The position numbers and the translations under genes were made by a program. Shown here in pieces: positions 2,139-14,714 of a stretch of DNA of 64,000 nucleotides. The notes under the pieces were generated by a model. That model made no database searches. It saw nothing but the letters and a program-made list of their open reading frames with translations, and had not been told where the DNA came from. Position 1 is the first letter of the stretch, and each line of letters starts with the position of its first letter. The DNA is from Deltaproteobacteria bacterium RIFOXYD12_FULL_56_24 (GTDB taxonomy: Bacteria; Desulfobacterota; Desulfobulbia; Desulfobulbales; Desulfurivibrionaceae). The stretch spans positions 1 through 64,000 of the forward strand of contig MGTD01000065.1 in the NCBI GenBank assembly GCA_001799285.1. Reading direction: 5' to 3'.

Positions 2139-2807
2139 TCAACTGTCGGCTGACAAACGAGATACAGCAGCATCCACCGCCGCTACCTGGGCAATGGCTG
2201 CCCTTACCTTATCAATATCCTTGCGACCGGGAGCAAACTCCACCCCGGAATTCAGATCCACGGCAAAGGGACGCGCCTGCCGAATCGCCTCACCCACATT
2301 CTCAGGGGTGAGGCCACCCGCCAGAACAACCGGACTTACAGGCGACAGTTTTTTCAGCAGACTCCAGGCAAAGGTCTGCCCGGTGCCACCGGCAAGCTTC
2401 TCCTGAAAGGTGTCAAACAAAAAGGCGGCAACCTTTCCGGCATAGGGCGCCAGGTCATCCGTGCTCAGGGAGTCCTTCACCCGAAAAGCCTTCAGCACCC
2501 GGCAGGCGATTGCCGCGCAATAGTCGGGGGTCTCTGACCCGTGCAGCTGAACCATGGTCAGACCGCAGTAGCGGGCAATCTCGTTCACCTCATCAAGCGG
2601 CTGATCGACAAAAACCCCCACCGCATCAACAAAGGGCGGCAGGCTGGCGACAATTTCCCGAGCCCGCTCCGGCTCAATGTACCGGGGGCTTTGCCCGGCA
2701 AAGATCAGGCCGATCGCGTCCACTCCGGCGGCCACCACTGCGGCGACCTCCGTGCGCTCTCGCATCCCGCATATCTTGATCCGCGTTCGCCCAATCATCT
2801 TTTTCAT
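2139..2807 (-). CDS. trpF: Phosphoribosylanthranilate isomerase
   Basis: This cytoplasmic enzyme catalyses the third committed step of tryptophan synthesis, converting N-(5-phosphoribosyl)anthranilate to its carboxyphenylamino-deoxyribulose isomer. The 222 residues are of normal length for a TIM barrel of this family. Seen motifs are RIKICGMR near residue 9 (catalytic Cys), the FVDQP and VQLHG strands, FLFDT with the catalytic Asp, and the carboxy-terminal phosphate loops LAGGLTPENV and DLNSGVE. Its start overlaps the trpC stop by four bases. It is the last trp gene here: trpB and trpA do not follow, and DNA beyond its stop is accessory. Met4 is an alternative start. Confidence 0.96.
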   Translation of the reverse strand: MKKMIGRTRIKICGMRERTEVAAVVAAGVDAIGLIFAGQSPRYIEPERAREIVASLPPFVDAVGVFVDQPLDEVNEIARYCGLTMVQLHGSETPDYCAAIACRVLKAFRVKDSLSTDDLAPYAGKVAAFLFDTFQEKLAGGTGQTFAWSLLKKLSPVSPVVLAGGLTPENVGEAIRQARPFAVDLNSGVEFAPGRKDIDKVRAAIAQVAAVDAAVSRLSADS

Positions 2808-3577
2808 CCTTGCTCTCTACCCGCCAACGTCCGCAGGGCCTCAGCCGGGTCCGCGGCCCGCATCAGGGTCTCCCCCACCAAGGCCGCCTTTACTCCATGC
2901 GCCGCCAGCCGTACCATGTCCCGATGATCACGAATTCCTGATTCGCTCACCAAGGGGATTTCCACCGGAATCATCTTCTGGAGGCGAAAGGTGGTATTCA
3001 GATCCATGGAAAAATCGCGGAGATCGCGGTTGTTGACCCCGATCAGCAGGCTGCCCGCAGCCACAGCCTTTTCGACCTCCGCCTCGTCATGCACCTCCAC
3101 CAGGGCATCCATGCCCAGCTCCAAGGCCAGGGCCTGATAATCCTGGATCTGGGAAGTCTCCAAAATGGCGGCAATCAGGAGAATAGCATCGGCGCCGTAA
3201 ACCCGCGCCTCCCTGATCTGCAACGGATCGATGATAAAATCCTTGCGCAACACCGGCAGAGCGACCGCCGCCCGCACTGCGGTGAGATAGGCGAGCGAGC
3301 CCTGGAAAAAATCCACATCGGTCAGCACCGACAAGGCTTGAGCCCCACCGGCCTGATAGCTGCGGGCGATGGCCACCGGATCGAAGTCGGCCCGGATCAC
3401 CCCCTTGGAGGGCGAGGCCTTCTTGGCCTCAGCGATGACGGCCACGCCGACAAAGTCGATAAGCGCCCGGATAAAGCCGCGTGGCGGCTCAATCTCCAGT
3501 TCGGGTGCAACAAGGCCTCGGGCCTTGAGGGCTGCAACCTCTTCTTTTTTTCGGGCGACGATGGTGTCGAGGATCAT
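2804..3577 (-). CDS. trpC: Indole-3-glycerol phosphate synthase
   Basis: This enzyme closes the indole ring from carboxyphenylamino-deoxyribulose phosphate, step four of tryptophan synthesis. At 257 residues it is a normal-length TIM barrel. Motifs include an amino-terminal [13 protein letters not shown] helix, [10 protein letters not shown] with the catalytic Lys and substrate loop, [44 protein letters not shown] and the phosphate-binding VSESGI and LVGETLM. It overlaps trpD by four bases upstream and trpF by four bases downstream, so these genes are probably translationally coupled. Confidence 0.97.
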
Positions 3578-4602
3578 TTCCGCACCGAGCGGGAAAAGGC
3601 GATGAGCGCCTCCACCTTGTTGAGCGCCGCGCCGCTGGCCACCACCTCCCGGGCCAGAGCCACGCCGGCGGCAAGATCAGCGGTGCGTCCGGCCGCCATC
3701 AGGGCGGCGCCGGCATTGAGCAGAACCATGTCGAGACAGGGCCCGGCCTCGCCGCCCAACACCAGGCGCAGCTGCACCGCCGCCTCGGCCGCGGTTGTCC
3801 CACCTTTGATCTCGGCCAGGGAGGCCGTAGCCATACCCAGCTCCGAGGGATGGATGCGGTAGGTTGTCAGTTCGCCGTTGGCCCAGTCGGCCACTTTGGT
3901 CGCCCCGGTAATGGTGATCTCGTCGAGATTGCCCTCGCCGCAGACCACCAGAGCGCGCTTGGTGCCAAGCCGCCCCAGCACCCTTGCCAGGGTTTCGGTG
4001 AGGGAGGGATCATACACCCCCATGACCTGAACATTGGCTCCGGCCGGGTTGGTCAGGGGGCCTAAGATATTAAAGATCGTCCGGATGCCGATTTCGCGGC
4101 GCGGGCCGATGGCATGCTTCATCGCCCCATGCAGGGCTGGGGCAAACATGAAACCGATGCCGATCTCCCTGATGCATTGGCCTATCTGCTCCGGGCTCAA
4201 GCTTAAGTCCACCCCCAGAGCCTCCAGCACATCGGCGCTGCCGCAATGGCTGGAGACGGAGCGGTTGCCGTGCTTGGCCACCGGCACCCCCGCAGCGGCC
4301 ACGACAAAGGCCGTGGTGGTGGAAACATTGAAGGTCCCGGAGGCGTCGCCCCCGGTGCCGCAGGTATCGACGAGAATCCCGCCCTCCGCGCCCGCCTCGA
4401 CCCTGGTGGCCTTGGCCCGCATCACCCTGGCCGCGCCGGTGATCTCGTCCACGGTTTCGCCCTTGATCCGCAGGGCGGTGATAAAAGCGCCGATCTGGGC
4501 CTGGGTGGCTTCGCCGCCCATGATGGTTTCCATCACCCCGATCATCTCCGCTTCGCTAAGATCGGTACCCGCCACCACTTTGCCAATGGCCGCTTTCATC
4601 AT
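3574..4602 (-). CDS. trpD: Anthranilate phosphoribosyltransferase
   Basis: This enzyme transfers phosphoribose from PRPP to anthranilate, the second step of tryptophan synthesis. The 342 residues have the nucleoside phosphorylase class III fold. Seen are the helical amino end, the PRPP-binding [18 protein letters not shown] loop (near residue 78), KHGNRSVSS, the hinge FMFAPALH, and [14 protein letters not shown]. There is no amino-terminal glutaminase domain; that is the separate gene trpG. Four-base overlaps link it to trpG and trpC. Confidence 0.97.
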
Positions 4603-5207
4603 GACGGCATCTCCCGGCGTTGCCTGGCAAGGATTTCCGGGTAGTCCGGATCAAGAAAATTCTTCAGCAACTGCACCCCTGCCGGGGTCATGATGGATTC
4701 GGGATGAAATTGCACCCCTTCCACCGGCAGGCTCCGATGTCTTAGCCCCATGAGCTCGCCCTGGTCTGAACGCGCCGAGACCAGCAGACAACCGGGCAGG
4801 TCGGATTCCTGCACCACCAGGGAATGATAGCGCATGGCCTCGAAGGGGTTGGGAAGGCCGGTGAACACCCCTAGACCGTCGTGGCTGATGGGGCTGGTCT
4901 TGCCGTGCATCAGCCGCCCGGCCCGCACCGTTTGTCCGCCAAAGGCCTCGCCCAGGGACTGATGCCCCAGACAGACGCCCAGCACCGGAATCCGGGTGCT
5001 GAAAAAACGGATCGCTTCGATGGAGATGCCTGCCTGGGCCGGCGAACAGGGGCCAGGCGAGATCAGCAGCCGGTCGGGCGCCAGCGCGGCGAGAAAGGCA
5101 AGATCCACCTCGTCGTTGCGAAAGATCTTCATCTCGGCGCCCATTCCCCCAAGGGTCTGGACGATGTTGTAGGTAAAGGAGTCGTAGTTGTCGATAATAA
5201 CGATCAT
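4599..5207 (-). CDS. trpG: Anthranilate synthase glutamine amidotransferase subunit
   Basis: This subunit supplies ammonia from glutamine to TrpE. It is a class I glutaminase of about 202 residues with [14 protein letters not shown] at the start, a nucleophile Cys in GVCLGHQ, and the His/Glu pair in VQFHPES. The ATG at 5207 was chosen over an upstream frame extension because it begins the conserved strand directly and has GAGAAAG just before it. In some bacteria the same protein also serves p-aminobenzoate synthase (PabA). It lies between trpE and trpD, separated from trpE by a palindromic repeat and joined to trpD by a four-base overlap. Confidence 0.95.
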
Positions 5208-5294
5208 ATTCTTTCTCGCGCTCCGCCGGAGCAAGCCGGTTGCCTAAGCCGTTGTTCAAAAAAACTGTAACCTTGAAATATCGTGATCGGCATA

Positions 5295-5345
5295 AGAAGC
5301 CGTAACGAAATGGACAAAAAAAACACTTATTTCGCAACGGCTTCT
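5295..5345. repeat. Palindromic repeat in the trpE-trpG gap
   Basis: AGAAGCCGTAACGAAAT (5295-5311) and ATTTCGCAACGGCTTCT (5329-5345) form a long imperfect hairpin. The right arm touches the trpE stop. A second copy of this family lies upstream of speA (50131-50182), and the similarity extends outward through 'gatcggcataag'. In the operon transcript it would fold between trpE and trpG, where it could affect RNA stability or the TrpE/TrpG ratio. Confidence 0.8.
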
Positions 5346-6858
5346 AAAATTCTTTTTCCGCCAGCTCCACCGCCCGCCGCAGCCCCATGGATTTGTTGAT
5401 GGTTTCCTGATACTCCAGGGCGGGCACCGAATCGGCGACAATTCCCGCCCCGGCCTGCACCCAGAGATCGTCGCCCTGCATGACAAAGGTCCGAATGGTG
5501 ATGCAAAAATCCATATTCCCGGAAAAGCCGAAATAGCCGACCGAGCCGGCATAGGGGCCGCGCCGCTCCGGTTCAAGCTCTTCGATGATCTCCATGGCCC
5601 GGATCTTGGGAGCCCCGCTCACCGTACCTGCGGGAAAGCAGGCGCGCAGGACGTCGAATTGATCCCTGCCAGGGGCCAGGGTGCCATGCACCCCGGAAAC
5701 CAGATGCATGACATGACTGTAACGCTCAACCACCAGCAGATCGCGAACCTCCACCGAGCCATAGCGGGCAACGCGCCCCACATCGTTGCGGCCCAGATCG
5801 ACGAGCATCAGATGTTCGGCCCGCTCCTTGGGATCGGCCAGCAGTTCCTGCTCCAGGGTCGCGTCCTCTTCCGGGGTTTTGCCACGCTTTCTCGTCCCGG
5901 CAATGGGGCGCAGCTCGATATCCTCCTGTTCCAGGCGGACCAGGATCTCCGGGGAAGAACCGATCTGGACCAGATCTCCGAGCTTGAGATAAAAAAGGTA
6001 GGGGCTGGGGTTGATATGGCGCAGGGCGCGGTAAAGCTTGAAGGGCTCCAGCGCTGTTTTGGTGTGAAAGCGTTGTGACAGCACAACCTGGATGATGTCG
6101 CCGGCCTGGATATACTCCTTAGCCGCCTCCACCATTTTCTCAAAAGCCGCCTCGCTCATGTTGGCAGTGAAGGCGTGGGGCGTGGCGGCCTTTAAGCCTG
6201 CGCCACCGAGATACTCCGTGGGCATGGGTGCCTGGAGACGGAGGATGATCTCCTCGATCTCGGCCTGCGCTTTTGCGTACAAGGCCGGGATATCCAGCGT
6301 TTGCCTCCCGGCACCAGAGGTCTGCACCAGATTGACCACGGTGAGCACTTGCCTGAGGTTGTCGTAGATCAAGACGGTTCGCGGCACCATAAAAGCGCTT
6401 TCGGGAAACTCGGCCAGGGGCGGATTGCGCTCGGGCAGCCGCTCCATGAAACGGACCATGTCGTAACCCAAAAAACCAACGGCCCCGCCGAAAAAACGCG
6501 GCAGCAGCTCCGGGTCGCAGGCCATCTCCGCATTGCAGGCATTAAAAGATTTCAGCAGACTTTGCAAGGCGGCAAGCGGGTCGCCCTCCTGCTCTTCCGC
6601 CATTCCCTCCCGGATGATGGTGATCCGGGTGCCGCAGCTGGCAAAGGTAACGATGGGGTTAAAGCCGATAAAGGAATACCTCCCCCATTTCTCCCCGCCC
6701 TCAAGGCTTTCAAAAAGAAAGGCGTGCGACTCCCCGCCCGACACCTTGGCAAAGATGGTCAGCGGCGTATCGAGATCGGCGATAATTTCCCGATAGATCG
6801 GCACCAGACCGGCATCGACCGCCAGGTGTTCAAACTCCTGCAGGGAAGGTCGGAACAT
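5344..6858 (-). CDS. trpE: Anthranilate synthase component I
   Basis: This is the large subunit, which makes anthranilate from chorismate with ammonia delivered by TrpG, and is the first and usually feedback-regulated step. The 504 residues are of typical length. The amino-terminal FESLEGGEKWGRYSFIG is the tryptophan-binding region (LLES-type motif). The chorismate-binding carboxyl half has YIQAGDIIQVVLSQRF, PSPYLFYL, GSSPE, RPIAGTRKRG, ADPKERAEHLMLVDLGRND, FPAGTVSGAPK and the terminal IQAGAGIV-like sequence VQAGAGIVADS. The ATG at 6858 has GAGGAG upstream. It heads trpEGDCF. A strong hairpin with a T-run lies about 20 bases upstream of the start. Confidence 0.97.
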   Translation of the reverse strand: MFRPSLQEFEHLAVDAGLVPIYREIIADLDTPLTIFAKVSGGESHAFLFESLEGGEKWGRYSFIGFNPIVTFASCGTRITIIREGMAEEQEGDPLAALQSLLKSFNACNAEMACDPELLPRFFGGAVGFLGYDMVRFMERLPERNPPLAEFPESAFMVPRTVLIYDNLRQVLTVVNLVQTSGAGRQTLDIPALYAKAQAEIEEIILRLQAPMPTEYLGGAGLKAATPHAFTANMSEAAFEKMVEAAKEYIQAGDIIQVVLSQRFHTKTALEPFKLYRALRHINPSPYLFYLKLGDLVQIGSSPEILVRLEQEDIELRPIAGTRKRGKTPEEDATLEQELLADPKERAEHLMLVDLGRNDVGRVARYGSVEVRDLLVVERYSHVMHLVSGVHGTLAPGRDQFDVLRACFPAGTVSGAPKIRAMEIIEELEPERRGPYAGSVGYFGFSGNMDFCITIRTFVMQGDDLWVQAGAGIVADSVPALEYQETINKSMGLRRAVELAEKEF

Positions 6859-8794: not shown

Positions 8795-9471
8795 TCCGGC
8801 GCTTGCCCATCCCAAACCTCCTCAACTGGCCGAACAATTGGGGACTGAAGCTCCTTTCCCTGATCTTTGCGCTTCTCCTCTGGTATTTCGTGGTAGGAGA
8901 GGACAAGATTGACACCACGGTCTTCATTCCGGTGGAAATTGTCAATCTGCCCAAAGAGCTGATCATCGCCAACCAGTTCAAGAAACAGCTGGAAGCTACG
9001 GTCAGCGGCCCCCGCGGCCTGATCGGCAGCCTCAACCGCCAGCGGATCACAAGAACCGTCAACCTTGACAAAGCCACCCCAGGCACCATTGTCATCCGCA
9101 ACGAACCAGAAACGATCCCGTTTCCGCGGGGCATCACCATCTCCCGCATCCAGCCCAGCCACATTACCCTGCTCCTCGACGAACTGGTCGAAATGGAACT
9201 GCCGGTCCAGGCCAAGGTCATAGGTACCCCGGCCAACGGCCATGAGAGGGTGGAGGTTATTTTCGAACCCCAGACCATCAAGATTTCCGGCCCCAAGGCT
9301 ATTTTGGGCCACGAAAAATTCCTGACCGCAAAAGCCATTAATATCAGCGGTCTGAAAGAGACGACAGCCATCCAGGTTCCCCTGGTACTGCGTCCCGCGC
9401 TGCTCGAACTAATGGGCGAGACCGTGGTCACCGCCAATGTGGTGATTCGCGAAAAAACAGGAACACCATGA
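8770..9471 (+). CDS. cdaR: YbbR-domain protein, CdaR-like regulator of CdaA
   Basis: This 233-residue protein has one membrane helix near residues 20-38 ([16 protein letters not shown]) followed by repeated extracytoplasmic YbbR beta domains, for example [39 protein letters not shown] and ISGPKAIL. Family members bind CdaA in the membrane and tune c-di-AMP synthesis. It starts 25 bases before the cdaA stop and ends overlapping the glmM ATG by four bases. It has only about two YbbR repeats, fewer than Bacillus CdaR. The assignment is firm for the domain and inferred for the partner. Confidence 0.88.
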
Positions 9472-10826
9472 AAAAACTATTCGGCACCGATGGGGTCCGG
9501 GGGGTGGCGAACATCTATCCCATGACCACCGAAATCGCCATGCAGATAGGCCGCGCCCTCGCCTTTCTGGTCAGGGACATGCGGCACGGCCACCGGATCG
9601 TCATCGGCAAGGATACCCGTCTTTCCTGCTACATGCTCGAAAATGCCCTGGCCGCCGGCATCTGCTCCATGGGGGTGGATATCCTCCTGGTCGGGCCGCT
9701 TCCTACTCCGGGCATCGCCTTCATAACTACCAGCATGCGGGCCGACGCCGGGGTGGTAATCTCCGCCTCCCACAACCCCTTCCAGGACAACGGCATCAAG
9801 ATCTTCGCCAGAAACGGCTTCAAGCTCAAGGACGAGCTGGAGCTTGAAATCGAGAACCTGGTATTCTCCGAGAAGATGTCGGCCTTGCGACCGGTGGCCG
9901 AGGAAGTGGGGCGCGCCACCCGGATTGATGACGCCAAGGGCCGCTACATCGTCTCCTTAAAAAATACCTTCCCCCAGAAATACACCCTGGATGCCTTCCA
10001 CATCGTGCTGGACTGCGCTAACGGCGCCACTTACGGGATAGCCCCCCACGTTTTCGAGGAACTGGGGGCCACCGTCACCACCCTGTCGGCGGAGCCGGAC
10101 GGCACCAACATCAACCGCGATTGCGGCGCCCTGCACCCGGAACACATGGCCGCCAAGGTTCGGGAACTCGGGGCGGACATCGGCATCGCCTTGGACGGCG
10201 ATGGCGACCGGATCATCGTAGCGGACGAACACGGCAACATCGTGGACGGCGACCATATCATGGCCATCTGCGCCGCCGATCTGCTCAGCCGCAAAAAACT
10301 GAAGAAGAAAACCCTGGTGGCCACGGTGATGAGCAACCTCGGCTTGGAGATCGCCATGCAGCAAATGGGCGGGGCCATGGTCCGCACCCAGGTCGGCGAC
10401 CGCTACGTGGTGGAAGAGATGCGCCGATCCGGCTACAACTTCGGCGGTGAGCAATCCGGGCACCTGGTGTTTTTGGAGCACAACACCACCGGCGACGGCA
10501 TCCTCGCCGCGCTCCAGCTGCTGGCGGTGATGATCAAAAAGCGCAGACCCCTGTCGGAGCTGGCCACCATCATGGAAAGCTTTCCCCAGGTGCTCAAGAA
10601 CGTCCGGACCGCTGAAAAGATCAACACCGCCCGCATCCCGGGTTTTAATAAAAAGATCCAGACCCTGGAAAAAAAATTGGGCACGGATGGCCGAATCCTC
10701 GTCCGTCCCTCAGGAACCGAACCGGTTATCCGGGTAATGGTGGAAGGCAGGGACGCTGGGCTGATCAACACCATGGCCGACGAACTCTGCGAGATGATCC
10801 GCAAGGCCGACACCGTCCGAGTCTAA
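9468..10826 (+). CDS. glmM: Phosphoglucosamine mutase
   Basis: The enzyme interconverts glucosamine 6-phosphate and glucosamine 1-phosphate on the path to UDP-GlcNAc, peptidoglycan and lipopolysaccharide. The 452 residues are of normal length. Motifs in order: [10 protein letters not shown] at the start, the phosphoserine loop VVISASHNP near residue 100, the Mg-binding DGDGDR near residue 244, the sugar loop GGEQSGH near residue 327, and the phosphate-binding [15 protein letters not shown]. In other species GlmM binds CdaA and inhibits it, and the gene order here fits that. The ATG overlaps the cdaR stop. Confidence 0.97.
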
Positions 10827-10850
10827 CCCCAGCCTCTTGCCCGGCAAATC

Positions 10851-11618
10851 ATGAAGACCAGACTAGACCAGCTTGTCCTCCTTCAGGGATTCGCCCCTAC
10901 CATCCGGCAGGCCCAAGCCCTGATTGCCGCAGGCCAGGTGCTGGTAAACGACCAGCCGGCCGACAAGGTCGGCGCACTCTTTGCCGAGGAGTGCGAGATA
11001 CGGCTGAAGGGAAAAGCCTGCCCCTATGTGAGCCGGGGCGGCCTCAAACTGGCGGCTGGCCTGGACCATTTCCAGATCGACCCAGTCGGCTTCGTCTGCG
11101 TCGACATCGGCGCCTCCACCGGCGGCTTCACCGACTGCCTGCTGCAGCGTGGCGCCGCCAAGGTATATGCAATTGATGTCGGCTATGGTCAGCTGGCCTG
11201 GAAACTGCGCCAGGATCCGCGGGTGACGGTTATGGAGAGAACCAACGCCAGAAATCTGAAACCCGGCGATCTTGCCGACCCCTTGGATCTGGCGGTGATT
11301 GATGCTTCTTTCATTTCCCTCAAAACACTGCTGCCGCCGTTGCTGGTTTTTTTCCCGGGAGCAATCCGGATGCTGGCCCTGATCAAGCCGCAGTTCGAGG
11401 TCGGCCGCGGTCAGCTCGGCACGGGCGGGGTTGTCCGCGACCGCGACCTCCACGAGAAGGTGATCGACGAAATCAGGGAATTTGCCGACCAGCTTGGTCT
11501 TGTCCCGATTGGCGTCAGCCCCTCCCCGATTCTTGGCCCCAAGGGCAACCGGGAGTTTTTGATCTATCTTGTTGCCGGAACGGAAGAGCGGACCATTGAC
11601 CATGCCCAGATACCTTAA
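10851..11618 (+). CDS. tlyA: TlyA-family rRNA 2'-O-methyltransferase
   Basis: The 255 residues comprise an amino-terminal S4 RNA-binding domain (RLDQLVLLQGFAPTIRQAQALI, VLVNDQPADKVG) and a Rossmann methyltransferase domain. SAM-binding motif DIGASTGGFTDCLL is near residue 84, followed by VYAIDVGYGQLAWKLR, DLAVIDASFISL and LIKPQFEVGR. Family members methylate cytidine 2'-OH in 16S and/or 23S rRNA; the old name is hemolysin A. It begins 25 bases after glmM and overlaps the following gene, so it is probably co-transcribed with the cda group. Confidence 0.92.
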   Translation: MKTRLDQLVLLQGFAPTIRQAQALIAAGQVLVNDQPADKVGALFAEECEIRLKGKACPYVSRGGLKLAAGLDHFQIDPVGFVCVDIGASTGGFTDCLLQRGAAKVYAIDVGYGQLAWKLRQDPRVTVMERTNARNLKPGDLADPLDLAVIDASFISLKTLLPPLLVFFPGAIRMLALIKPQFEVGRGQLGTGGVVRDRDLHEKVIDEIREFADQLGLVPIGVSPSPILGPKGNREFLIYLVAGTEERTIDHAQIP

Positions 11619-12264
11619 CCGACTCCTGACCGCCGCAGCCTTTCTTGGCATCACCCTCTCGGCCGCAGGCTCCAGCCCGAGGGAGCAGATCCTGGACGAC
11701 TATAAAAAAGGCTTGGGGCCGGGCTGGGAAGCGAAGTACTTTGTCGGCCAGACCAATTATGCAGTCGAACACGATGGCAAAAACCCCTCCATTAAGGCGA
11801 CCAGCACTGCGGCTGCCTCCGGTCTTTTTTTCAAGATTGCCTATGAGGCAAAAGAACAGCCGCTCCTTCGCTGGAGCTGGAAGATCGAGCGCACCATCGC
11901 CAAGGGGGACGAACGCACCAAGGCGGGGGACGATTATGCGGCCAGGGTCTACGTGGTTTTCCCCTCCCTTTTGTTCTGGAACACCAAAGCGCTCAACTAT
12001 ATCTGGGCCAACAAGCTGCCCAAGGGCGAGGCCCTACCGAACGCCTTCACCGCCAACGCCATGATGATCGCGGTGGAGAGCGGCAACGAGCGCGCCGGTC
12101 AGTGGCTGAACGAAGAACGCAACATCTATGCGGATTTCAAAAAATATTTCAAGACCGAGCCTCCCAGGGTGGGCGCCATCGCCATCATGACCGACACCGA
12201 CAACACCGGGGAGAGCGCCGTTGCCTGGTACGGCCCGATCAGCATTCGCAAATACCGCCTGTAG
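11602..12264 (+). CDS. DUF3047 domain exported protein
   Basis: This protein of about 220 residues starts MPRYLNRLLTAAAFLGITLS, a signal peptide with cleavage near AAGSSP. The body has the DUF3047 pattern: QILDDYKKGLGPGWEAKYF, ATSTAAASGLFFK, LLRWSWKIE, DDYAARVYVVFP, LNYIWANKLP and a carboxy-terminal TDTDNTGESAVAWYG. The domain is found in periplasmic proteins of proteobacteria and has no established role; the fold is likely a beta-sandwich. The ATG at 11602 lies inside the end of tlyA, a 17-base overlap, so it is probably translated from the same message. Confidence 0.85.
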   Translation: MPRYLNRLLTAAAFLGITLSAAGSSPREQILDDYKKGLGPGWEAKYFVGQTNYAVEHDGKNPSIKATSTAAASGLFFKIAYEAKEQPLLRWSWKIERTIAKGDERTKAGDDYAARVYVVFPSLLFWNTKALNYIWANKLPKGEALPNAFTANAMMIAVESGNERAGQWLNEERNIYADFKKYFKTEPPRVGAIAIMTDTDNTGESAVAWYGPISIRKYRL

Positions 12265-12310
12265 CCAAGCGCCGGCCTTCTGCCGGAAAGCAAAAGGGAT
12301 TTGGAGACGG

Positions 12311-12339
12311 TTGACTTGCCGGAGTGAAAATGCTACCTT
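12311..12339 (+). promoter_or_regulatory. Probable promoter of the SH3-domain gene
   Basis: TTGACT (12311-12316) and TACCTT (12334-12339) are spaced by 17 bases and lie about 90 bases before the start codon at 12428. They follow a small hairpin (GCCGG/CCGGC near 12270-12285) that may end the upstream transcript. Confidence 0.5.
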
Positions 12340-12427
12340 GGCTGGGTGCCGACCTCAGACCTGTTCAGCACTTCCATGCGTTGTGCGGACCATATTATTC
12401 TCCAATTTTTCCAGGAGTTTTTCTATC

Positions 12428-12976
12428 ATGGCCAAAAAACATCCCCTTTTCCGACCATCTCTGCTCTGCTGTCTTGCGGGCGCCTTTCTCCTGACGCTCG
12501 GAGTCAGCGCCAACGCCGCCCCAAAAAAGGATTCTACCAAGACTTCCTCCAAAAAATCCACCGCCAAAACGACTTCGAAAAAGGCCAGCATCACCGCGAC
12601 GGAATACGTCAGCGTCCTGAAAGATGGGGTCAATATTCGCTCAGGCCCTGATACAAATAAGGAAATCCTCTGGACGGTATTCAAGGATTTTCCGCTTAAG
12701 GTCAGCACCCGCAAGGGGAAATGGGCTCAGGTGGAAGACTTCGAAGGGGATAAAGGCTGGATTTTCACTGAACTAATCAACAAAGAGAAAACCGTCATTG
12801 TCAAGGTTGACAGCGCCAACCTGCGGGGGGGAGCGGGAACAGATCATGAAACCGTTGCAGATGTCAAACACGGCGTAGTGTTCAAGCTCCTGACTACCAA
12901 AGGAGACTGGGTCAAGGTCCAACATGCGGACGGCACCACCGGCTGGATATTCAGCAAGCTGCTCTGGCCCAATTGA
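12428..12976 (+). CDS. Exported protein with two bacterial SH3 domains
   Basis: This 182-residue protein has a signal peptide with hydrophobic core CCLAGAFLLTLGVSANA. A low-complexity linker rich in Lys, Ser and Thr follows (about residues 33-55), then two SH3b repeats. The first has LKDGVNIRSGPDTNKEILW through KGWIFTELI; the second has VDSANLRGGAGTDHETV through GWIFSKLLW. Bacterial SH3 domains usually bind cell-wall peptides. There is no catalytic domain, so a periplasmic wall-binding or adaptor role is most likely. The ATG at 12428 has a weak AGGAG at 12413-12417 and places the signal peptide correctly. Confidence 0.85.
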   Translation: MAKKHPLFRPSLLCCLAGAFLLTLGVSANAAPKKDSTKTSSKKSTAKTTSKKASITATEYVSVLKDGVNIRSGPDTNKEILWTVFKDFPLKVSTRKGKWAQVEDFEGDKGWIFTELINKEKTVIVKVDSANLRGGAGTDHETVADVKHGVVFKLLTTKGDWVKVQHADGTTGWIFSKLLWPN

Positions 12977-13031: not shown

Positions 13032-14714
13032 ATGGTTTCCATAGCCACCATCGGCCCGGAAGGCTCCCACGCCTGGCAGGCTGCCCGCCAGTACAGCCCC
13101 GAGGCGACAATCAGGCTATTCCCCAATCTGGTCGCGGTATTCAAGGCCTTTGCCGCCGGGGAGGCCGATCTGGCTCTGGCGCCGGTTTACAATACTCGCG
13201 AAGGGCAAGTAAAGGAATACAGCCGGTTGGTCAAAGGTTTGGACAAGGGCTTCTGGATGGGCAATATCGTTCTGCCCATCAATCTTTCCCTGGGGACCAT
13301 CTCCGCCAACGAACCCATTACCATGCTCCTTGGCAAGAGCGGGGTACTGCGGCAATGCGAGGATTACATCACCAGCGCTTACCCGGAGGCAACTCTTACC
13401 TCTGTGCATGATCTGGATGGTGCGGTGCGCGAAATCAAGGCCAAAGGCCTTGCCGGCCATGGGGTCATCGAGTCGGAGGAAGCCTTGCGCACTTACGGTT
13501 TGGCCATCCGCGCCAGGGAGATCGTCCCCCATAATCGGACCCGCTACGCGGTGCTTGGCTCGACCCCGGCCCTCCGCACCGGTTACGATGCAACAACCAT
13601 GATTACCACCCCCATCAAGGACCGGGTCGGCATCCTGGCGGACATTTTACATGAGTTCACCAAACGCAGCATCAACCTCATCGACCTGCAGACGGAAACC
13701 GACCCCCAGAGCCAGAAGCTGCAATTTTTTATCGAATTCGAGGGGCATCTTTCTGACGAGCGGGTTCGTGCGGCCATCGAGCGCATCGAGCATCAAATCA
13801 TCGAAGAGCCAGGCTCGGTAAGGGTGCTGGGCAGCTTCCCCAGGGTGGACATGAGGGTCAAGCGCATCAAGACCTTTGGTTTTATCGGCAGCGGTGAGAT
13901 GAGTCTCTGGTTCGCCGAGCGCTTGCAGAGCGAAGGCTACGAAACGATGATCACCGGCCGGAACAGCGCGTTGCGGCCCGAAGAGATGATCCACCAGGTA
14001 GAGGTGGTGGTGATCTGCGTACCCATCAGCGCCACCCCGGCAACGGTGACGGAATACGGGCCGCTGCTGGCGGAAAACCAGGGGCTGATTTTGCTGGCCG
14101 GCGAGGCGGAAAACGTGCTGGATACCGCCTTGGCCCACACCAGGGAAGGGGTGGAAGTGCTGCTGGTCCATAACCTGTGGGGGCCGGCCGCCGCCACGAT
14201 GAAAGACAAGAACGTCTCGGTGGTCCGCACCGTGCGAAGCGGGGTTTTAAGCAGCGAGTTCGAAGCCTTTCTCTATAAGCACGGGGCCAAGATCTCCCTC
14301 GACACCCCGGGTCGGCACGATCTCCTGATGGGGGTCAGCCAAAAGCTGCCCACCTCCATCTCGGTGGCCCTGGCCATGGCCCTCAAGGACAACGGCATCC
14401 CCCCGGAGGCCATCGGCAGCCACGCCACCCTCACCTCGCTTTACTCTATCCTCTCCATGGCCAGGGTGCATGGGCAAAACCCCCGCACCTATGCGGAGAT
14501 CATGGCGACCAGCGGCCAAGGGCGCCGCATTGTCCAAAGCTTTGCCGAAAACCTGAACCGGATCACCAGACTGGCCGAATCCGGCGAGATCGAAACGCTC
14601 TGCGCCCTGATCGAAGATAACCGGCGATATCTTAGCGAACCGTTCCTCAAGGAAAGAATGCAGCAGGCCCTGGCGGTGGACGCCACCCTGGGCCGCGTAC
14701 TCAGCCGCGATTGA
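13032..14714 (+). CDS. Prephenate dehydratase-like / ACT / prephenate dehydrogenase fusion
   Basis: The protein has 560 residues in three parts. Residues 1-180 resemble prephenate dehydratase (IGPEGSHAWQAARQYSP, GEADLALAPVYNTREGQV, and HNRTRYAVLG with the conserved Thr-Arg). Residues 190-270 are an ACT domain (DRVGILADILHEFTKRSINLIDLQT) for amino-acid feedback. Residues 280-560 are TyrA-like: a Rossmann GFIGSGEMSLWFAERL, VVVICVPISA, the VHNLWGP region aligned to the catalytic-His loop, and HDLLMGVSQKLPTS. It should act at the branch to phenylalanine and tyrosine. Deviations: the dehydratase PIEN motif reads PVYN, and the second His of the TyrA motif is not seen. Whether one or both activities survive is unclear. 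No chorismate mutase domain is present. Confidence 0.82.
   Translation: MVSIATIGPEGSHAWQAARQYSPEATIRLFPNLVAVFKAFAAGEADLALAPVYNTREGQVKEYSRLVKGLDKGFWMGNIVLPINLSLGTISANEPITMLLGKSGVLRQCEDYITSAYPEATLTSVHDLDGAVREIKAKGLAGHGVIESEEALRTYGLAIRAREIVPHNRTRYAVLGSTPALRTGYDATTMITTPIKDRVGILADILHEFTKRSINLIDLQTETDPQSQKLQFFIEFEGHLSDERVRAAIERIEHQIIEEPGSVRVLGSFPRVDMRVKRIKTFGFIGSGEMSLWFAERLQSEGYETMITGRNSALRPEEMIHQVEVVVICVPISATPATVTEYGPLLAENQGLILLAGEAENVLDTALAHTREGVEVLLVHNLWGPAAATMKDKNVSVVRTVRSGVLSSEFEAFLYKHGAKISLDTPGRHDLLMGVSQKLPTSISVALAMALKDNGIPPEAIGSHATLTSLYSILSMARVHGQNPRTYAEIMATSGQGRRIVQSFAENLNRITRLAESGEIETLCALIEDNRRYLSEPFLKERMQQALAVDATLGRVLSRD

Follow-up and report, generated by a model that had tools for sequence, protein, structure and literature searches.

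A single open reading frame in a Desulfurivibrionaceae genome encodes a prephenate dehydratase-like (PDT) domain, an ACT domain, and a dehydrogenase of the prephenate dehydrogenase (TyrA) type. On the sequence comparisons below, the chances are about even that this is the order's TyrA carrying a captured PDT-ACT module, one that is no ordinary dehydratase and that controls the TyrA domain. The gene occupies positions 13032–14714 of the window (the whole stretch of 64,000 nucleotides that was analyzed) and codes for one chain of 560 amino acids from ATG to TGA. The gene and all features described within it are on the + strand. The PDT domain (aa 4–178; 13041–13565) matches Pfam PF00800 with an E value of 3.3e-30 and 105.7 bits against a cut-off of 25.2, and the ACT domain (aa 196–253; 13617–13790) matches PF01842 with 32.5 bits against a cut-off of 27. 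The TyrA part consists of a nucleotide-binding domain with a GxGxM motif and a later T-G-R (about aa 280–425; 13869–14306), identified by a fold match to 2pv7, and the dimerization domain PDH_C (aa 426–527; 14307–14612; PF20463, 32.9 bits, cut-off 22). PDH_N scored 14.8 bits, under the Pfam cut-off of 26.5, but its region is nevertheless covered by the fold match. No chorismate mutase (CM) domain was matched in this frame by Pfam. The nearest NCBIfam models are prephenate dehydratases for the N-terminal half and prephenate dehydrogenase for the C-terminal half, all far under their naming cut-offs. A PDT-ACT-TyrA chain without a mutase, as proposed in a preliminary description of this DNA, is thus borne out by the reading frame, the Pfam matches, and the fold.

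The structure of the fusion was modeled with AlphaFold2 from 55 input sequences (mean pLDDT 87.0; pTM 0.68, at which the relative orientation of the domains is not to be interpreted). The model contains a complete two-lobed PDT fold of the periplasmic-binding-protein type, an ACT domain, and a TyrA dehydrogenase. Prephenate dehydratases are the best solved fold matches to the PDT-ACT part (6vh5, Z 26.0, 268 residues, rmsd 3.2; 2qmx, Z 25.6), with 3mwb as a further match to the PDT domain. Model residues 276–554 match the Haemophilus influenzae TyrA 2pv7 (Z 24.3, 273 aligned, rmsd 3.1). A frameshift or a chimeric assembly was ruled out as the origin of the gene. The full-length frame is open in 15 other genomes at 53–64% identity, and the fusion is therefore no assembly artifact.

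A sample of 395 genomes from the phylum was searched for the fusion. Among the matches listed, the full-length form occurs in 16 genomes: the host, four members of the same family, and 11 further members of the order. These 16 are every genome of the order in the sample, and no full-length unbroken fusion was present among the matches listed for the other 379. Next-best matches include two genomes (G015 and G172) with adjoining but separate CM-PDT-ACT and TyrA frames. An order-wide search with a fusion profile (E ≤ 1e-60) matched 239 of 257 genomes, including 144 of the 148 that are of high quality, and the matches listed span nearly the full model length. PDH_C was found in 232 of the 257 genomes, exactly once in each, and PDT in 250; each of the 16 genomes sampled from the order gave two or more PDT matches. 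The best 80 of 216 loci related to the fusion are of Desulfurivibrio, Desulfobulbus, Desulfocapsa, Desulfoprunum, Desulfosediminicola, and Desulfopila types. A 435-aa frame in the single-contig genome G458 (L208, G458:C1) was considered as a natural split of the fusion and rejected, as it is a frameshifted fusion; the frameshift is likely a sequencing error. One genome of the order that is 98% complete (G526) has no PDT, PDH_C, or fusion match and may belong to an aromatic amino acid auxotroph. PDT matches in five genomes of family f30 (G027, G203, G308, G344, and G154) lie within long frames of 666–961 aa, some with stops read through, which may represent additional fusions or may simply be long.

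The host genome contains a second PDT (213 bits) on another contig, C59, in an ordinary CM-PDT-ACT protein that also carries the only chorismate mutase match in the genome. PDH_N had zero matches in the host genome search, the only PDH_C match is the fusion itself, and phenylalanine hydroxylase was not matched in the host genome. Of the stand-alone pheA and tyrA genes that had been suggested as worth looking for, pheA was found in the host genome and tyrA was not. The genome is 95.29% complete and a missing tyrA could in principle fall in the gap, but the order-wide count of a single PDH_C per genome argues against this. Given a separate canonical CM-PDT-ACT protein and no other TyrA-type match, the fusion is probably the tyrosine enzyme of the order.

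Residues of the PDT site were compared between 70 fusions and 48 real PDTs (47 from the phylum and that of Escherichia coli), with PDT loci L028 and L188 dropped. The fusions, all from one order, comprise 55 alignment rows and 15 sequences from the genome search, with at least one probable duplicate record (L005/L110); 54 of the 80 relative loci were translated for the alignment and 26 were left out. N160, S208, Q215, and T278 of the E. coli PDT are residues that we take to be catalytic. The PIEN motif had been described as altered, and this holds: it reads P-V-Y-N in the host (Y53-N54; 13188–13193), with E. coli E159 replaced by Tyr and N160 kept. Glu occupies the E159 position in none of the 70 fusions (Tyr in 64, Phe in three, His in three) and in all 48 real PDTs, and Asn is found at the N160 position throughout both sets. 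The SHPQ motif is lost. At the position of S208 the host has G101 (13332–13334), and Ser is present in 2/70 fusions versus 48/48 PDTs; H209 is retained in 0/70 and Q211 in 4/70. Further losses affect H117, D171, and T234 (each 0/70) and S233 (3/70), and the E183 position has Asn in 70/70 and Glu in none. H117, E159, D171, E183, S208, H209, and T234 are near-universal in the 48 real PDTs and occur in only 0 to 2 of the 70 fusions. Residues kept in all 70 fusions are Q108 at the position of Q215 (13353–13355), T170 and R171 at the positions of T278 and R279 in the TRF motif (13539–13544), and G164 in E. coli numbering; N276 is retained in 69/70 and C216 in 68/70. The fusion PDT has also acquired new fixed residues (R56, W75, N78, and R162), and residues of its cleft rank with the best conserved in the domain.

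The ACT domain has lost the phenylalanine-binding ESRP motif. QTET stands in its place (aa 220–223; 13689–13700), and E329, R331, and P332 are retained in 0, 1, and 0 of the 70 fusions and in 48/48 PDTs each. The earlier proposal that one ACT domain senses Phe or Tyr is therefore weakened in its Phe part. Median dN/dS among 14 close relatives (91 pairs, with L107 left out for its differing length) is 0.170 for PDT, 0.107 for ACT, and 0.105 for TyrA. Together with the residue pattern, these values indicate a PDT domain under slightly looser selection than TyrA, with a specific cleft that has departed from the typical dehydratase form. The cleft appears to have been rebuilt, not to have decayed.

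These data bear on whether the protein is a bifunctional enzyme. In that case, the PDT domain would make phenylpyruvate as a second, differently regulated isozyme, and TyrA would make 4-hydroxyphenylpyruvate from the same prephenate pool. The invariant N160, Q215, T278, and R279 equivalents (70/70), the complete two-lobed PDT fold of the model, and the purifying selection on PDT are what such an enzyme should have, and a score far over the Pfam cut-off with a retained TRF threonine leaves room for dehydratase activity. The PDT relative GqqA is reported to have two of the four E. coli catalytic residues and yet to complement a pheA mutant; it keeps the equivalents of E159 and E232, which are described as substrate-binding in the E. 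coli enzyme (PMC8192741). We consider a bifunctional enzyme unlikely, because the seven near-universal residues listed above are so rarely retained, a canonical P-protein is already present in the host genome, and a related fusion described below manages without the second-lobe region of PDT. The preliminary reading that a single chain simply carries both branches is likewise unsupported, as a separate canonical CM-PDT-ACT protein exists and the fused PDT lacks residues that are universal in the 48 PDTs.

The TyrA site was compared between the 70 fusions and 13 stand-alone TyrAs of the phylum. H380, at the position of the catalytic H197 of E. coli (14169–14171), H429, at the position of H245 (14316–14318), and R478, at the position of R294, which contacts the substrate carboxylate (14463–14465), are each kept in 70/70 fusions. 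Also intact in all 70 are the G-x-G loop and the counterparts of Gln298 and Tyr303. The second His of the TyrA active site, previously thought to be missing, is therefore present if the H245 kind is meant (H429), and it is the H257 kind that is missing. The host has T441 at this position (14352–14354), the fusions have Thr in 64/70 and Ser in 6/70, and His is found in 13/13 stand-alone TyrAs. Mutants tie this His to tyrosine inhibition and not to catalysis, with inhibition abolished in E. coli H257A and Aquifex aeolicus H217A, and the tyrosine-insensitive TyrA of Synechocystis is reported to have Val at this position (PMC2954222).

The equivalents of Ser176 and Lys178, which the preliminary description did not mention, are also lost (G357-A359; 14100–14108), with neither kept in any of the 70 fusions. 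The S176 position is Gly in 70/70 fusions and Ser in 13/13 stand-alone TyrAs, and the K178 position is Ala in 37/70 and Ser in 33/70 versus Lys in 13/13. At two further positions that are uniform in the stand-alone enzymes, Asp173 (13/13) is replaced by Leu, Ile, or Val and Pro198 (13/13) by Asn in 70/70 fusions. S333 was examined as a candidate for the catalytic Ser and ruled out, since its counterpart in E. coli is H153; the true position is G357. The active-site Ser is described as important for catalysis yet dispensable in absolute terms, with a 15-fold lower kcat and a tenfold higher Km in A. aeolicus Ser126Ala (PMC2954222). Given this effect and the absence of the Ser176 and Lys178 equivalents, catalysis by the fused TyrA is not assured. 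The T-G-R after the second strand of the nucleotide domain is conserved (G309 and R310 in 70/70) and resembles the NADP+-linked Arg of Synechocystis, where NADP+ use is attributed to Arg31 (PMC2954222). From this resemblance and the residue losses, the domain is predicted to be a TyrA of the NADP+ type that has no tyrosine feedback at its active site and whose catalytic residues are in part new. Q482 is invariant in the fusions and aligns with Gln301 of H. influenzae, which we infer to be position 222 of PMC5681985; the alignment to the soybean chain ended short of this position. A preference for prephenate over arogenate is faintly suggested. The partial loss of motifs and the possible regulatory role put forward in the preliminary description are both supported.

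Since both sites are off-canon at fixed positions (S176, K178, D173, and P198 in TyrA; E159 and S208 in PDT) and PDH_N falls under the Pfam cut-off, it was also considered that both domains have turned to another substrate or to a function other than catalysis, with tyrosine coming from an enzyme that was not recognized here. GqqA would be a precedent for such a change, as this PDT relative is reported to have acylase activity toward homoserine lactones (PMC8192741). A new role of this kind seems quite improbable in view of the retention of the fusion across the order, the lack of any other TyrA-type or phenylalanine hydroxylase match in the host genome, and the intact catalytic His, His partner, substrate Arg, and nucleotide loop in 70/70 fusions. 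Channeling or scaffolding alone, in which the PDT-like domain would sense no ligand itself and would only tether TyrA to the P-protein, for instance through ACT-ACT pairing, is very unlikely: the ACT domain is retained and the GqqA dimer shows pairing of ACT domains (PMC8192741), but a mere scaffold would have no need of such highly conserved cleft residues.

The PDT-ACT part may instead act as a control module for the order's TyrA. The TyrA domain would oxidize prephenate (arogenate being less likely) with NADP+, and direct tyrosine inhibition at its active site would have been lost, since the responsible His is now Thr or Ser. An aromatic ligand would be bound by the ACT domain (tyrosine) and by the conserved cleft of PDT (prephenate or something similar), and binding would switch the dehydrogenase through domain closure. 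Phenylalanine would be made by the separate CM-PDT-ACT protein. A more specific version is tentative and on balance doubtful: the order would have swapped the active-site feedback of TyrA for a pseudo-enzyme whose PDT domain has stopped dehydrating prephenate, continues to bind it or an analog and, with ACT, sets the ratio of the Phe and Tyr branches, while TyrA runs without a Ser and a Lys that are fixed elsewhere. If the PDT-ACT part is a control module, a branch-point competitor has turned into a regulator, and tyrosine synthesis in a sulfur-cycling order is explained by an enzyme that annotation from motifs can overlook or mislabel, as PDH_N, with no match in this genome, illustrates. The fusion also allows one to ask which residues of the TyrA active site are indispensable.

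A related fusion of about 460 aa was identified in two genomes of another family (G348 and G654) among the 42 genomes searched in the class, at L175:1501–2883 and at L176. In L175, which alone was scanned with Pfam, the PDT match covers only profile positions 11–76 of 181; the second-lobe region is absent, and the truncated match is followed by a TRF segment and then by the TyrA part. Pfam gave no ACT match in L175 at E ≤ 0.1; alignment to the full fusion and inspection of the sequence suggest that the stretch before TyrA is an ACT domain. In each of the two genomes, a separate frame of 365 aa also matches the PDT-ACT part. Loss of the second lobe is structurally plausible, because the fold of GqqA survives the loss of its middle domain, which was removed by proteolysis in the crystal with the rest of the fold intact (PMC8192741).

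Phylogenetic analysis placed the TyrA parts of the full and half-PDT fusions in one clade with support of 98/96 (TyrA locus L184 was dropped from the tree). The PDT parts are compatible with a joint clade in an unrooted tree, with 94/88 for the stand-alone side, where long branches meet according to a program warning. Descent of the fusion PDT from a recent duplicate of the host P-protein is not supported, as the fusion PDTs stand apart from the P-protein in the tree. The half-PDT fusions retain the Lys178 and His257 equivalents of TyrA. A full PDT cleft without the tyrosine His, set against half a PDT with it, fits a transfer of feedback to the PDT module in the two lineages compared. Because the half-PDT fusions keep that His, the link between its loss and the PDT module rests on very few lineages.

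Proteins with comparable architectures were compared to the fusion. The half-PDT fusions likewise have a PDT-derived part and then TyrA in one frame, but differ in the absent second-lobe region and the retained Lys178 and His257 equivalents. The closest solved TyrA, both by profile (3e-29) and by fold, is that of H. influenzae (2pv7), and the fusion keeps the kinds of residue found at its His200, His248, Arg297, and Gln301. The H. influenzae enzyme also has the catalytic Ser179 and His260, both absent from the fusion, and is joined to a chorismate mutase. P-proteins of the AroQ-PheA type, such as E. coli PheA and the one on contig C59 of the host, have PDT followed by ACT with the same fold as the N-terminal part of the fusion. 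They differ from it in containing a chorismate mutase, intact PDT motifs, and ESRP, and in having no TyrA. TyrA-ACT proteins of Bacillus, Xanthomonas, and others also combine TyrA and ACT in one chain, but as described they have ACT at the C terminus and no PDT (PMC1173090); in the fusion, ACT is N-terminal to TyrA.

The parallel with Archaeoglobus drawn in the preliminary description is partial. Archaeoglobus fulgidus has a four-domain TyrA-AroQ-PheA-ACT protein (PMC1173090), and according to a 2024 survey of archaeal fusions the triple fusion occurs only in Archaeoglobus and Ca. Huberarchaea (PMC11237513). TyrA, PDT, and ACT share one chain in both cases, but the archaeal protein begins with TyrA and includes chorismate mutase, whereas the fusion begins with PDT and has no mutase. 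No description of a PDT-ACT-TyrA protein, or of PDT as a control module, was found in the open-licence PMC literature. TyrA fusions and ACT on TyrA are already known, and the PDT-ACT-TyrA order is apparently new.

Gene neighborhoods were inspected by eye. No aromatic operon was seen beside the fusion in eleven loci, nine of them flanking a fusion of the order, which is a weak test. Upstream of the fusion, the region 9468–12973 of the window codes for glmM-like, FtsJ/S4 (TlyA-like), DUF3047, and SH3 proteins; some of these neighbors seem to recur near the fusion in relatives (L143, L115, and L131) and have no evident link to aromatic synthesis. Farther away, translations of the open reading frames at 2139–6858 on the − strand read as trpE, trpG, trpD, trpC, and trpF, a putative tryptophan operon about 6 kb from the fusion gene.
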